Assembly (NCBI RefSeq): GCF_018390735.1
Contig: NZ_JAHBCL010000006.1
Coordinates: forward strand, 1 to 64,000
DNA from: Fusibacter paucivorans
Lineage (GTDB): Bacteria; Bacillota; Clostridia; Peptostreptococcales; Acidaminobacteraceae
DNA: 64,000 nucleotides
Reading direction: 5' to 3'
Shown: positions 10,838 through 55,702 of the stretch, piece after piece
How the letters are laid out: each line of letters opens with the position of its first letter
Numbering within the stretch: position 1 is the stretch's first letter
The notes under the pieces: generated by a model
Told to the model about the DNA's origin: nothing
The model's input: only the letters and a program-made list of their open reading frames with translations
Database searches by the model: none
Program-made: the position numbers and the translations under genes

Positions 10838-11791
10838 TTATGGCATATATCGGCCGACACCTTCACCAGTCATCGCATCTATGTATTCAATCCATCGATC
10901 AACTTCATCCATTAAAATATCATTTATCAAATTGGGATTCATACGCGCCGGTTTAACATCAATTTTTAAGATTTTATGCTTAAAACGACATTGGTGCTCA
11001 TAATTCAAATCACAAAACTGCCGCAGCCTCGTGTTAAAACTACCAAGTCTAGCTTCGTCATGGTCGTTGAAAAACAGCAATAGCTGTTCTGGTGCATAAT
11101 GTGTAAACACCATTTGCTGATCAAGCTGCTGAATAACAAAATTCGAAAAGCTATGGAGCATTTCTCTAATCTGTCCTTCTGATTTTTGCCAGTCTTCGCC
11201 CACGGCAATGGAAACGAGATAAACGTCATCTCCAGCTTTATCATCACGGCCTCTAATAAGTGCGGCAACTTGCTCTTTAAAGCGCAATTTGACATCTCCA
11301 GCCATCTTCTTGCCTACCATACCAGATAGTTCATTCTCAATACGGCGCTGCATCGAATCCGTCTGATCATTCATCATCAGAATAAAATACTGATGTCTTT
11401 CGACATTAACCGGCAGCACTGACAAATCAAACCACTTAATGACATTTGTTCCCTGCGATGAAAATGAATGTTTAATTTTTATATTGCTGACCACGCGCTG
11501 TAAGAGGCCGGCACTTAAAATTGTATTCCGAATTTTACAGTTATCACACTGTCTCGTCGTACCGCACACACTCTCTGTTTGTGATACAACGCTGCACTGA
11601 AAAAGATTGCCGAATTTTTCTGAGTGCGGTTCATCGCTTATATGTATTAATTGCTTCAGTTGTTCATTGCCATACACGTAATTAAAAGCATCATCCAAAA
11701 TAACGACGCCTAGCGGCGCAGCCTCTAATAAATGGCTTAACAGCGCCTCTGATTGAGTCTTCTCTAAGGCTCGAAAAATCTTATGTATCAT
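10838..11791 (-). CDS. PAS-domain protein of unknown function
   Basis: 317 residues, soluble. An N-terminal PAS-like domain (LLEAAPLGVVILDDAFNYVYGN) contains a cysteine group (CSVV, then CGTTRQCDNCKIR) of the type seen in PAS sensors with an internal Cys cluster, possibly redox- or metal-sensitive. The C-terminal half (from about residue 160) has no motif I recognise and no helix-turn-helix or kinase signature. Ribosome site GAGGTGAT-ATG. It heads an operon with the EAL protein, so a role in setting c-di-GMP output is plausible. Confidence 0.7.
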   Translation of the reverse strand: MIHKIFRALEKTQSEALLSHLLEAAPLGVVILDDAFNYVYGNEQLKQLIHISDEPHSEKFGNLFQCSVVSQTESVCGTTRQCDNCKIRNTILSAGLLQRVVSNIKIKHSFSSQGTNVIKWFDLSVLPVNVERHQYFILMMNDQTDSMQRRIENELSGMVGKKMAGDVKLRFKEQVAALIRGRDDKAGDDVYLVSIAVGEDWQKSEGQIREMLHSFSNFVIQQLDQQMVFTHYAPEQLLLFFNDHDEARLGSFNTRLRQFCDLNYEHQCRFKHKILKIDVKPARMNPNLINDILMDEVDRWIEYIDAMTGEGVGRYMP

Positions 11792-14498: not shown

Positions 14499-16013
14499 CT
14501 ATGCTTTTAAATCAAGTCCAATAACACCAATAATTTTGCCATCTGTGTCTTTGATTGGAAATGATACCGTTTGACATGGTTGTTTGGTAATAGCGGATAT
14601 ATACATGGGCGAATAGTAAATTTCACCTTTGCTGCTGTGTTTAAACCAGTCTCGCACGCTGCCGTTAACAATGCCCGCAGGTGGTATTGAGTGCAAAAAC
14701 CGACCTTTGATGTCATTGGTCCATATTGCTTCCACTTCACTGTATTGATTGAGTACCCCCTTCAGCAGTCCTTCATGTGCGCCTGCTTCCATGGTCGCCA
14801 ATCGACGATCGCCAAAGATGGCCTTTTCTATTTTCTGTATCAGCTGCTTCGTTGTATCACTGATGATGACTTCCTGATCACTTTGCTGATCGTAGAAAAC
14901 ATTTTTAAGGTTTTCTGAGGCATCATTCAACCGCTTGCTCATTTCATCCATTTCCGCCATGCCCTCTTTCTGCTTGGCAACTGAATGATAGACGGCATCA
15001 ACGCTTTCATTGGCATGTGTCATCATTTCTTCAACGTGTTCAATCTTCTCTTTGATCTCGTCTGACTTATCGACCTGATCTTTTGAAAGCCCACTGACAC
15101 GGTTGATCAACCCGCTGACTTCTTCAAAGGATGCACTGATATTTTTCAAGTTGTGCTCGACTTTAGACGATATGGCAACGCCTTTTTCGACACGTGTCGA
15201 GTTTTCATCAACCTGCCTGGTCACACGCTTCACTTCGTCTTGAATCGTATTGATAAGCTTACTGATATCTTTCGCCGCATTATTCGTATCTGTCGACAAT
15301 TTGCGAATTTGCTCAGCTACGACGCCAAACCCGCGCCCCGCTTCACCAGCTCTAGCCGATTCAATTGTCGCATTAAGGGCTAAGAGCTGTGTTTGTTCAG
15401 AAATGCTTTCAACGGTATCCAAGATATAAATAATCTGTTCAGTCGCTTCATGGAGTCTGCCAACATAAGCGATGGTCTCTATAGATGATTCTTGAATATC
15501 ATTAACCGTTTTAACAATTTCAAGAATTTCCGTAAGACTGCTAAAAATAATTTTTGATGAATCATCGCTCTTTTGTTCCATGTCCTGCGTAATACCCATG
15601 ACATCGTTCAACATCGCGTTGATCTGATTGACGTGACCAACCATCTCCTTGATATTTTGGGAGACATCATTATTAATTTTAGACATAGATTGCGTCTGAT
15701 TGAACAAGTGCGTTGTAAATTCATTGTTTTCATCAAGTGTTATACAAAGTTGCTCAGAGATCGCCGACACTTGGCTTGAAGCAACTTGCGCTTCGCCGTT
15801 CAGCTGTTCAAGAGCCACTTCAGCTGACACAGCTTCCTCTTTTGCCGTTTCGACGTGTCCATTGCCCATCTTATGGCGAATAATAATCCATATAATGCCC
15901 ACGAACATAAAAATAATCACTTTTGGCAGCCAAAGTGATTCTGGAAAGAATTTGAAATAGGCAACAGTCAACGCCAGCAGCACAATTTGAAAGGCCATTC
16001 CTCCTTTTTTCAA
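14499..16013 (-). CDS. Methyl-accepting protein with C-terminal Cache-like sensor
   Basis: About 504 residues from a TTG at 16013 (GGGGGG six bases upstream); an ATG at 16082 has a badly placed ribosome site. Two close N-terminal membrane segments are followed by a long coiled coil and the signalling tip [19 protein letters not shown]. The last 90 residues form a Cache/PDC-like module ([19 protein letters not shown], then [20 protein letters not shown]). The sensor is therefore at the C-terminus, inside the cell, whereas most receptors carry it outside at the N-terminus. It probably monitors a cytoplasmic metabolite. Confidence 0.88.
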
Positions 16014-16182
16014 CGTAATCCCCCCATTCTTTCTTCTACTTTGCTTGAAACATCTGTTCCTGCAAGCGCCAAATAATGACATACTTCCTGAGCGCCTGCC
16101 TCTTTAAATAACGGCGCATCACCATGACAATTGTTGACACTTTGATCATTGTTTCAATTTTCTATCTTTTTAATTGATACTG

Positions 16183-50510: not shown

Positions 50511-51833
50511 CTAGATCAAATAGTTGTCTTTCACCCCATCTTCATAAACACCCCAGACGCGAATCGCTTCTTCGAGTTCTTTTTTGCCTACGGCTTCAGT
50601 CTTTAAATCTTTGCCTGCAATAATAATATCAATCGCCTGTCTCATTGCAATCGCACCGGCTTTTGGTCCCATCGGATGCGCGTGGACACCAGCACCAACT
50701 CCCAATATACAGTCGATTCCAGCATCGGTTAACGTTTGCTTAACGAGCCCCGGAATTACACCGCCGCCATAAAGCGGCAAAGAAGGTTTGATGTCATAAA
50801 GATCGCTGGTAAGCGCTTGTGTAATCTTCATGTATTTACTATGAAGAATATCAAACTTACCATAAGGTGATGAATTAACGACCAAGTCAGCACCACACAA
50901 GCGAATCATTTTATTCAGTACATGCGAGCTCATCCCTTGCAGTTCAGAGGTAAACCAAGCGCCGCCGCCACATGCGTGCGCTAAAATTGGTACATTGATT
51001 TCCGGATCTTCAGCAAGCATTCTCAGTGCTGACAATCCTGTTCCAACCACATTGACCATAATACAATTTGTTCCCGCTTCAATTGCCTTCATTGCGTTGG
51101 CTTTTAGTTTACTCATTTCATCAGTAATATTACAGCAGTAAAGTGTCATTTCACCTTTGACAGCATCTGCTTTTTTTGCTGCTGCCATGTTTAATTTTAC
51201 CCTGTCTTCAATTCTATTGAAAGCCGTATCACCTGCAATGAGTTCGTCGTCTTTAATGATATCAACACCGCCAACAGCTGCTTCGTAGAACAATTTAGCA
51301 CCAACTTCAGGCGTATAACCTGTACAAGGTTTGATCATATTATTCAGGAACGGTCTGCCTTGCACACCCATGAGTTTACGCATGCCTTCAATACCGAATT
51401 TCGGCCCTTTAAATTTTTCAACAAATTTTTTACCGAACTCGATATCGAGCAGTTTTAAATCAGGCAATGCCGCAATATTGCCGATAACTGATGACAGCAT
51501 CAACGGCAAGTTGTCATCAAAATTGACAACCGGGAATGCAATCCGCATCACATACCAGCGCTTTTCTACACCATGGAGGTTTTCCATGTTTTCATAGTCA
51601 GGCACTTCATAGACGCCAATTGTTTTCGCAGCGTATTTTTCCCTCAATTCAGGTGTTTCTTCAGGAATGTCAACCCATGAACCAGTCGTTTGCTCGATGG
51701 CAATACTCGCTGCCTTGATAATTGGGTCTTCGTTGAGTTTGGCACCAACCAAATAGGTTCCAATGACATAATCATCTGGATTGATGCCCTCAAACATTCG
51801 ATTTAATTCTTTACTGTAAAACGCATTTCTCAT
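50511..51833 (-). CDS. RuBisCO-like protein (form IV)
   Basis: 440 residues from the ATG at 51833 (GGAGGAAG upstream). The RuBisCO fold is clear: N-domain IEQTTGSWVDIP, barrel segments NNMIKPCTGYTPE, VDIIKDDELIAGD, ILAHACGGGAW, CGADLVVNSSPYGK, LYGGGVIPG and GAGVHAHPMGPKAGA. The carbamylation/metal triad KDDE and the loop-6 Lys (YGK) are kept. Several carboxylase residues are changed: Lys177 is Cys, Arg295 is Ala, His327 is not His, Ser379 is Gly. It is therefore a RuBisCO-like enzyme, probably acting on a phosphorylated keto-sugar acid by enolisation or decarboxylation. It is the first gene of the PTS operon. Confidence 0.92.
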   Translation of the reverse strand: MRNAFYSKELNRMFEGINPDDYVIGTYLVGAKLNEDPIIKAASIAIEQTTGSWVDIPEETPELREKYAAKTIGVYEVPDYENMENLHGVEKRWYVMRIAFPVVNFDDNLPLMLSSVIGNIAALPDLKLLDIEFGKKFVEKFKGPKFGIEGMRKLMGVQGRPFLNNMIKPCTGYTPEVGAKLFYEAAVGGVDIIKDDELIAGDTAFNRIEDRVKLNMAAAKKADAVKGEMTLYCCNITDEMSKLKANAMKAIEAGTNCIMVNVVGTGLSALRMLAEDPEINVPILAHACGGGAWFTSELQGMSSHVLNKMIRLCGADLVVNSSPYGKFDILHSKYMKITQALTSDLYDIKPSLPLYGGGVIPGLVKQTLTDAGIDCILGVGAGVHAHPMGPKAGAIAMRQAIDIIIAGKDLKTEAVGKKELEEAIRVWGVYEDGVKDNYLI

Positions 51834-51882
51834 TTTTCTTCCTCCATTTGGCAAGATTAAGTTTCACACGCCCTATATAAAC

Positions 51883-53424: not shown

Positions 53425-53715
53425 TTATCCTCCAAAATAGGTACTTATAGAAACAACCTTCGACAGGCCTCCAAACACACGTCCTGAACGCCTTGGCATT
53501 TAAGCAGCAGTCACGCATTTCCGACAATTTATATTCAGTATCAATAGCATAAACAATTATATCATAGCCGTCAACCACCCATTCGTGTTGCCATTATCAG
53601 GAATTGTATCCTTTTTTGAACTTTTGTTAATATTTTACAATCTTGTTTTATTAAAAAACGTGCAATTTAACACGAAGATAATAAAATAGCATATGTTCAT
53701 TTGCCTATTATCATA

Positions 53716-53721
53716 TATAAT
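53716..53721 (+). promoter_or_regulatory. Probable -10 box of the hydrogenase-chemoreceptor gene
   Basis: A perfect TATAAT, with a weak -35 (TGTTCA) 16 bases upstream. The start would fall near 53728, about 30 bases before the ATG. Apart from this site and the small gene's own promoter, bases 53425-53758 show nothing. Confidence 0.45.
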
Positions 53722-53758
53722 GAAAACATCCGCATGTAAATATTCGACAAAGGAGTAT

Positions 53759-55702
53759 ATGAACATCATGGCTTTACTTGAAACCCTTTATTTAAAGGAA
53801 GAGAATTGTACCGGATGCAATCAGTGCGTTGCCAACTGCCCTATTCCCGGTGCAAACATCGCCTATTTAAACGAGGACGGCGTTAATAAGGTGAAATTGG
53901 ATTCTGAGCGTTGCATCCACTGTGGTGAATGCATTCGCGTATGCGAACACGAGGCAAGACAATACCGGGATGATACAGAGCTGTTTTTCGAAGCCCTCCA
54001 AAAAGGGCAAAAAATTTCTATTATTGCAGCACCGGCAATCGCAGTCAACTTTAGTCGCTTTAAACAACTGTTCGGCTATTTAAAAACACTTGGCGTCAAC
54101 GTTATTTACGATGTATCCTTTGGTGCAGATATCACCGTTTGGGCCTATCTTAAGGCTGCCAAAAAATCCGGCATGTCCAGCATCATCGCACAACCGTGTC
54201 CACCAATCGTCAATTTTATCGAAAAATATGCCAGCGACCTCATTAAAGATTTAGCGCCAATACACAGTCCGATGTCCTGTACGGCAATTTATCTTAAAAA
54301 ATATGCGCATATCAAAGATGAAATTGCCTTCCTCTCACCATGTATCGGCAAACGTGACGAAATTCGCGACGCGAACACAGAAGACCTCATCACCTACAAT
54401 GTCACCTTCAAAAAACTCGAAGATTATTTGAAAGCAAAAGGCATTGACCTCAATCGTTACCCCGAAAAAGATTTTGATGATTTAGGCACGACACTTGGTT
54501 TCCTTTTCAGTCGGCCTGGCGGTTTAAAGGAGAACGTCCTCTATTTTGAACCCAATGCTTGGATACGCCAAATAGAAGGACCTCATCACGTCTATGAGTA
54601 CCTTCAGGAATATAGCGGTCTGCAAAACAGCACAAAGCCATTTTTAGTGGATATTCTCAATTGCAGTTATGGATGTAATTTTGGAACAGGGACAAAACAC
54701 AATGCACTTGAACGCTCCACCAGCATTGACTACGTTGAAAAATTCTTCAACGACCGCAAAAAGGAGCAAGCCGACAAAAAAGCTGGGCTATTTCGAAAAA
54801 AACGCGTTGACGAACTCTATCGATATTTGGATAAAAATTTACAACTTGACGATTTCGTCAGACACTACAGCGCCAAAGGCCTAAAGCTAAACCACGATGT
54901 ACCGTCTGCCGCAACACTCAATGTCATTTACGAGAGTATGAACAAAGAAGATCAGGAGAGCAGAAAAATCAATTGCGTTGCCTGCGGTTATCAATCTTGT
55001 GAAAAAATGGCGACTGCCATTTACCACGGTTTCAATATCCCAAACAACTGCATTGATTACAACAAAAAAACAGTCTCAATGGAAAAAGATATGCTCTCAG
55101 CACGAGAAGCACAGCTCCAAGCCGCAGAAGATATGAAAGCGTTAACCGAAAAACGCCTCGAAGATGCAATGGCAATCGGCAAGAGTATTAAAATCATCGT
55201 CGCTTCAATTGACAATGTCTTTGCCGGGAATGAAGAAAATGCCAACGCGGTTGAGAATATCCGCAATCAGTCAATCGACATTTTGAAAATGGTCGAAACG
55301 CTAAAAGCATCTATGACTGAGATGGATGCCAAACTCGTTGACTTCACAAAAGCCAACCAACAAATCGTCTCCATTGCAGATCAGACGAATATGCTGGCGC
55401 TAAATGCAGCCATCGAAGCCGCCAGAGCCGGTATACACGGTCTTGGCTTTTCTGTTGTCGCAGAAGAGGTTAAAAAGCTCGCTGAACAAACAAAATTTTT
55501 AGCGACGAGTACGCAAGAAGGTCAAAATGACATTCACAACGCGATGGTTTCCTTATCCGGTATTTCCAACACCATTGAATCTAAAATGAATAGTATGGAT
55601 CAAGCCGTTTCCAGCATTTCGGCCTCTTTGCAAGAAATTACTTCTTATACCGAGGAAATGTCAGAATCTGCCGCACACGTCATCGAGCGCTTGGATCAAT
55701 AA
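53759..55702 (+). CDS. Soluble sensory [FeFe]-hydrogenase fused to a chemoreceptor domain
   Basis: 647 residues (ATG at 53759; ATG at 53768 also possible; ribosome site AAAGGAG). No membrane helix. Order: two [4Fe-4S] ferredoxin motifs ([23 protein letters not shown]); H-cluster domain (about 55-370) with [22 protein letters not shown] and [13 protein letters not shown]; an extra Fe-S motif ([13 protein letters not shown], later Cys); coiled coil; and a methyl-accepting signalling tip [20 protein letters not shown]. The four H-cluster cysteines are present but the proton-shuttle Cys is Pro, as expected for a sensor rather than a catalyst. It should report hydrogen or redox state to CheA/CheW. 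Confidence 0.9.

Follow-up and report, generated by a model that had tools for sequence, protein, structure and literature searches.

Sensory [FeFe]-hydrogenases have long been called 'putative' because direct physiological evidence on them is sparse and they offer no easily measured output; that proteins of this kind, which form a family of several hundred, steer anaerobes by hydrogen or redox level has already been suspected. HydDB lists [FeFe] group C2 as 'Chemotactic (putative)', acting possibly via methyl-accepting chemotaxis proteins (PMC5037454), so that the general idea of a chemotactic sensory hydrogenase is already in print. TamHydS (M2e, group D) binds an H-cluster, carries a [4Fe-4S] cluster on a Cx2Cx4Cx16C motif, the role of which was left open by Land et al., and has an affinity for H2 near 0.1 mM (PMC8163306). 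Both TamHydS and TmHydS, with similar residue losses, still convert H2 (PMC8163306, PMC10055695), and proline stands at the proton-shuttle position in about 10% of the sensory sequences of HydDB (PMC10055695). In the literature searched, we found no experiment on any member of the family described below.

A hydrogenase and a signalling domain in one gene

Within the window, the whole 64,000-nucleotide stretch of Fusibacter paucivorans DNA analysed here, the original prediction had read a sensory [FeFe]-hydrogenase and a methyl-accepting chemotaxis protein (MCP) signalling domain in a single open reading frame (ORF), and Pfam searches, alignments and AlphaFold2 modelling bore this out. The enclosing ORF (53693-55702, + strand) encodes one protein in which Pfam matched two ferredoxin-like (Fer4) clusters (aa 8-63), Fe_hyd_lg_C (aa 82-306, E 5e-30), the FeS domain PF04060 (aa 400-429) and MCPsignal (aa 507-636, E 3e-22). 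No PAS match was obtained in Pfam scans of the fusion protein, and the lack of a predicted sensor or HAMP domain, together with our reading of the sequence, suggests that it is cytoplasmic. The additional cluster motif between the hydrogenase and MCP domains had been overlooked in the original prediction, as had the breadth of the fusion. The gene and the block preceding it are:

53768..55702, + strand: coding sequence of the sensory hydrogenase-MCP fusion, 644 aa, predicted soluble (ORF list, Pfam, start conservation)
53655..53767, + strand: upstream block, almost identical in a congeneric genome (alignment of upstream regions)

The best start is probably the ATG at 53768, 9 nt inside the start at 53759 that had been proposed at first and that now appears to lie too early, because the congeneric sequence has ATA at 53759 and keeps the ATG at 53768; residues are numbered from 53768 throughout. 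A ribosome-binding site (AAGGAG) lies at 53750-53755, and the conserved block likely holds the gene's own promoter, as its near-identity between the two genomes suggests. Promoter and terminator scans around the gene gave scores no higher than the shuffled background, and a flagellar sigma-factor promoter upstream of the gene was dropped from consideration, as the best scores reached only 9/12. Two congeneric homologues, L037 (in genome G001) and L054, have one T fewer after codon 6 than the gene in the window, so that the conserved ATG and the remainder of the gene are in different frames; this may reflect an assembly error, a damaged gene or the use of another start.

The fusion gene stands alone, flanked on one side by genes for a GNAT-like acetyltransferase and a peptide-deformylase-like protein (both named from sequence alone) and on the other by one for a HAD hydrolase. 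Membership of a hydrogenase operon was ruled out, the flanking genes being unrelated and on the opposite strand, and so was a chance ORF or a chimeric assembly, since the congeneric genome has this fusion between the same neighbours. Elsewhere in the window we noted an MCP (14499-16082, - strand) in which the usual order is reversed, the signalling domain (aa 172-353) preceding Cache/PDC matches at the C-terminus (aa 426-526); a RuBisCO-like protein with the large-chain catalytic domain (50511-51854, - strand) adjoining a fructose-type PTS gene set; and a 317-aa ORF (10838-11791, - strand) without a Pfam match at E 1e-5, which has a GGDEF-EAL protein on one side and a dCache MCP on the other.

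Active-site residues, relatives and host genomes

The hydrogenase input module comprises the following features:

53789..53956, + strand: N-terminal ferredoxin-like domain, aa 8-63, with two [4Fe-4S] motifs (C14, C17, C20, C24; C49, C52, C55, C59) (Pfam, conservation)
54011..54685, + strand: H-domain (Fe_hyd_lg_C), aa 82-306 (Pfam, structure matches)
54194..54199, + strand: P143-C144, proline in place of the proton-shuttle Cys (CpI C299), followed by the first H-cluster Cys (C300) (alignments; Pro in 72/73 relatives)
54335..54352, + strand: S190-P191-C192...K195, Ser for CpI Met353, ligand C355 and the Lys358 equivalent (invariant, 73/73)
54656..54676, + strand: L297...C299...C303, Leu for CpI Met497 and ligands C499 and C503 (conservation, alignment)
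54974..55051, + strand: C-terminal cluster motif Cx2Cx4Cx16C (C403, C406, C411, C428) at the joint between hydrogenase and output (PF04060; four Cys invariant in 73 relatives)

A phmmer alignment to solved hydrogenases placed P143 at the first and C144 at the second Cys of the TSCCP motif (CpI C299 and C300), and alignment to solved enzymes and to the group A enzymes of this genome equated C144, C192, C299 and C303 with CpI C300, C355, C499 and C503. The claim that all four H-cluster cysteines are kept while the shuttle Cys has given way to Pro (P143) thus held. Equivalents of the proton-path residues C299, E279 and E282 are absent in the alignment with this genome's group A enzymes, which sets the protein apart from catalytic group A (CpI numbering); the Glu pair of the relay is replaced. 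The features of a sensory hydrogenase (HydS) are present, namely two N-terminal [4Fe-4S] motifs, the four ligand cysteines, loss of the shuttle Cys and a C-terminal Cx2Cx4Cx16C motif.

We scanned 84,980 species, each represented by a single genome, and recovered 456 relatives, so that the fusion is not the exception it had been taken for, all the more as HydDB already has its C2 'chemotactic (putative)' group. We retained 80 of these relatives, which belong to Bacillota, Spirochaetota, Melainabacteria/Cyanobacteriota, Calditrichota and a few other groups, and aligned 73 full-length members. In the organism's own taxonomic family the protein occurs in only 3 of 41 genomes (E below 1e-40), and a plasmid collection held two relatives, one of the MCP type and the other an R. 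albus HydS. All 73 aligned members retain the H-cluster ligands (C144, C192, C299 and C303), the equivalents of Lys358 and Ser323, the Ser for Met353 and the four C-terminal cysteines; the ferredoxin cysteines are likewise invariant (one row being truncated). Judged from the alignment, the invariant ligands and the invariant equivalents of Lys358 and Ser323 speak for retention of the H-cluster pocket. In favour of an H-cluster is also that the exchanges Met353 to Ser and Met497 to Leu (the latter in 72/73) are those of TamHydS, which binds one (PMC8163306). Since Pro occupies the shuttle position in 72 of the 73, it reads as a family signature and not as a lesion.

The output is MCPsignal in 63 of the aligned members, a histidine kinase (HisKA, HATPase) in six and GGDEF in four. 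In a tree of the input part, built by a quick method and with SH-aLRT support only, three separate histidine-kinase groups and one GGDEF group are nested among members with MCP outputs, and six changes of output (between kinds of MCP, histidine kinase and GGDEF) suffice, compared to 23 in shuffles, as expected for an input module. One sequence (L082, JADPRS010000005.1), titled Lutibacter sp. B2 (Bacteroidota), groups with Clostridium sequences in this tree, and the record may be mislabelled or mixed.

The maturases HydE, HydF and HydG, whose absence had been named in advance as evidence against a hydrogen sensor, are all encoded in this genome (G000; 4.43 Mb, 97.5% complete), with matches above curated cut-offs. 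The genome also encodes seven Fe_hyd_lg_C proteins. The chemotaxis and flagellar genes sought alongside the maturases were found as well: two CheA, 31 MCP domains, FliF, and CheW, CheR and CheB genes. A flagellar cluster on contig C32 includes cheB, cheA and cheW, and a second set (cheA, cheW, MCP, cheR, cheB) lies away from it on contig C16; the genes of both clusters other than those for CheA and MCPs were named from translated sequence. On contig C14, a PAS-type HydS is encoded beside a SpoIIE-type phosphatase and a group B-like hydrogenase, in a gene order matching that of the HydS and phosphatase genes of R. albus. Two further hydrogenase-like proteins are encoded on contig C6: a group A-like enzyme (L001) with the L1 motif TSCSPGW, in which Ser takes the ligand position of CpI C300 and the shuttle Cys is retained, and a 432-aa protein (L006, 23557-24240) of TamHydS-like layout, with a C-terminal four-Cys motif, no output domain and Tyr at the proton-shuttle position.

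Across 50 host genomes of relatives, HydG was found in 42, HydF in 45 and at least one of the two in 46. The HydG count of 42/50 compares with 128/196 (65%) in the class (Fisher p 0.01), the hosts lying partly outside the class used for the base rate and possessing other hydrogenases too. This co-occurrence supports H-cluster occupancy, as weak evidence, because the other hydrogenases of a genome such as this one need the maturases anyway. Neither HydF nor HydG was found in four of the 50 host genomes, drafts of which contigs of 3 kb and above were searched; these are two MAGs, a 1.5-Mb draft and an isolate draft (Desulfocucumis palustris). In the genomes of Clostridium ragsdalei and C. ljungdahlii (L096, L101), HydF was found and HydG had no match at E 1e-60, which may be due to draft gaps or a divergent HydG; both species are known to possess [FeFe]-hydrogenases. 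CheA is present in 47 of the 50 hosts, and one of the three exceptions has a GGDEF output.

The signalling hairpin and the readings of its signal

The AlphaFold2 model, built from 42 sequences (mean pLDDT 85.7), has [FeFe]-hydrogenases as its best PDB matches (E 6e-17), and its C-terminal third forms one long hairpin, with a continuous helix at 429-553, a turn and a second helix at 555-643. The long helix begins one residue past the last FeS cysteine, C428, so that a signalling hairpin of 215 residues follows the C-terminal cluster (Pfam, model); the antiparallel hairpin and the conserved tip are those of an MCP.

55052..55426, + strand: long helix (aa 429-553) that forms the N-terminal arm of the signalling hairpin (AlphaFold2, spacing analysis)
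55286..55675, + strand: MCP signalling domain, aa 507-636, with the tip (Pfam MCPsignal, tip comparison)
55643..55681, + strand: stretch with a near-consensus methylation-like motif, 79 residues past the tip Glu

Many relatives have a full methylation motif at the position where the fusion protein has the near-consensus only. From the last FeS Cys to the tip Glu there are 122-123 residues in 32 of the 63 MCP members. In members with other hairpin types this distance is 172, 192 or 60, mostly whole-heptad shifts that keep the register, and 51 of the 63 fall within the same two register classes, a count inflated by kinship, with few independent cases behind it. The phosphorylated His of histidine-kinase members lies 23 to 58 residues past the last cluster Cys, and in GGDEF members the DxLT motif lies about a dozen residues past it, which leaves no room for a further sensor domain. 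From these spacings we infer that transmission is the role of the C-terminal cluster domain.

The C-terminal arm, counted from the tip Glu, measures 94 residues. Most MCPs of this genome have arms of 134-171 residues (about 160), and the short arm should not fit their arrays; other soluble receptors in the genome are about as short (arms of 88-89 residues), and four MCPs (L017, L027, L031, L138) have very long parts beyond the tip. As a difference of one heptad excludes a receptor from the array in E. coli (PMC7534058), the short hairpin likely sits, by analogy, in a separate cytoplasmic array. At the tip, Ile and Leu occupy the positions of two charged residues of E. coli Tsr, presumably E391 and R394, where relatives have Glu (42/58) and Lys or Arg (55/58); a few other MCPs of this genome deviate likewise. 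Judged from the tip sequence, coupling to CheA appears plausible.

The observations to be accounted for are the domain order, the residues, the maturation and chemotaxis genes and the interchangeable outputs, and we consider it probable that they describe a cytoplasmic receptor in which a PAS-less sensory hydrogenase passes the state of its H-cluster through the C-terminal cluster to an in-register coiled coil and thereby controls CheA. HydE, HydF and HydG would insert the H-cluster into the H-domain. Lacking the proton-shuttle Cys and the acidic relay, the H-domain is expected to turn over slowly and, by analogy with characterised HydS enzymes, to rest in a state determined by dissolved H2 and the redox level of the cell. 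The two N-terminal clusters would relay electrons, and the C-terminal [4Fe-4S] domain, whose last Cys leads directly into the 125-residue helix, would feel the redox or ligand state. Movement or a change of charge at this cluster may then alter the packing of a presumably dimeric coiled coil, such that the hairpin tip changes control of CheA through CheW and biases swimming. That hydrogen, and not general redox state or CO, is the signal and chemotaxis the output is what we infer. Counting against the receptor as described are the four hosts without HydF and HydG, the Ile and Leu at the tip, the 94-residue arm and the affinity of TamHydS, which is modest for a sensor.

Other readings differ on the signal or on the output. 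It is rather unlikely that the protein is a redox receptor, in which the N-terminal clusters bring the H-cluster, or its [4Fe-4S] part, into equilibrium with ferredoxin and the receptor reports the level of reduced ferredoxin, with H2 acting only through the pool. Energy taxis via cytoplasmic receptors is an established theme, three conserved [4Fe-4S] sites connect the H-domain to soluble electron carriers, and the proton relay for fast H2 chemistry is absent; on the other hand, a sensor of ferredoxin redox state alone would have no need of the diiron pocket, whose ligands and equivalents of Lys358 and Ser323 have been retained, and the similarly depleted TamHydS and TmHydS still convert H2 (PMC8163306, PMC10055695). 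An H-domain that carries [4Fe-4S] clusters only and senses oxygen or iron-sulphur status is highly improbable: while the Pro at the shuttle position and the four of 50 hosts missing both HydF and HydG would suit it, HydF and/or HydG occur in the other 46, this genome has all three maturases, the diiron-site residues are invariant, and some 10% of the sensory sequences in HydDB have Pro at this position (PMC10055695).

Either signal would be compatible with a receptor uncoupled from flagellar motility, through an own cytoplasmic array, perhaps with the CheA of contig C16, or through poor coupling due to the tip. The short arm set against those of most MCPs of this genome, the exclusion by a single heptad in E. 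coli (PMC7534058), the Ile and Leu at the tip and the second cheA-cheW-MCP-cheR-cheB cluster all point this way; yet four or more further MCPs of the genome are short or soluble, so that short receptors are normally used, and ordinary tips dominate among relatives. We regard such uncoupling as somewhat unlikely. A broader proposal, which we put forward tentatively as the lesser chance, is that these proteins are a separate branch of hydrogen receptors, one that lacks PAS, and that the C-terminal [4Fe-4S] cluster itself transmits the signal and drives any helix attached in register, so that the same input could be plugged into a chemoreceptor, a histidine kinase or a diguanylate cyclase. If true, the proposal would explain the signalling of sensory hydrogenases that lack PAS and would provide a dedicated intracellular receptor for H2-taxis.

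Domain content, conservation, genome content and the swapped outputs within the family support the soluble sensory hydrogenase with MCP output that was first proposed; the observation is confirmed and its interpretation correct in outline, its rarity having been overstated. With input and chemoreceptor, kinase or diguanylate cyclase fused in one protein, an effect of H2 on phosphorylation or c-di-GMP becomes assayable by standard means, and a long-open question on H2 sensing becomes directly testable, even if specialists would broadly expect such a fusion. An answer would show whether hydrogen guides the movement of fermenting anaerobes, a matter that bears on syntrophy and on gut and sediment ecology.

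Comparison with described sensory hydrogenases

The fusion protein shares with HydDB group C2 the link to methyl-accepting chemotaxis, here as MCPsignal in the same ORF (and in 63/73 relatives), and we class it as a sensory [FeFe]-hydrogenase of the chemotactic kind, with probable membership of C2; the paper describing C2 is silent on the domain anatomy, a Pro signature and the mechanism of the group (PMC5037454). With TamHydS it has in common two N-terminal clusters, the loss of the shuttle Cys, Ser for M353, Leu for M497, the Cx2Cx4Cx16C motif and the lack of a PAS domain (PMC8163306). By contrast, TamHydS ends past the C-terminal cluster and is encoded upstream of a bifurcating hydrogenase, whereas in the fusion protein the MCP hairpin follows and no hydrogenase gene is adjacent. 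Likewise, the Ser or Thr that replaces M353 in M2e/group D is present (S190, in 73/73), but the group's lack of an output domain is not. The input layout and the C-terminal cluster motif are also those of TmHydS and RaHydS (M2f, group C with PAS; PMC10055695, PMC6776011), which have a PAS domain and a separate partner (a SpoIIE-type phosphatase beside RaHydS) in place of the fused, PAS-less output seen here. In its active-site residues, Ser and Leu for the two methionines, the fusion protein is closer to TamHydS than to TmHydS. Short (about 24H) soluble MCPs, finally, have a similarly short hairpin without a transmembrane segment, and it is the hydrogenase input that distinguishes the fusion protein from them.
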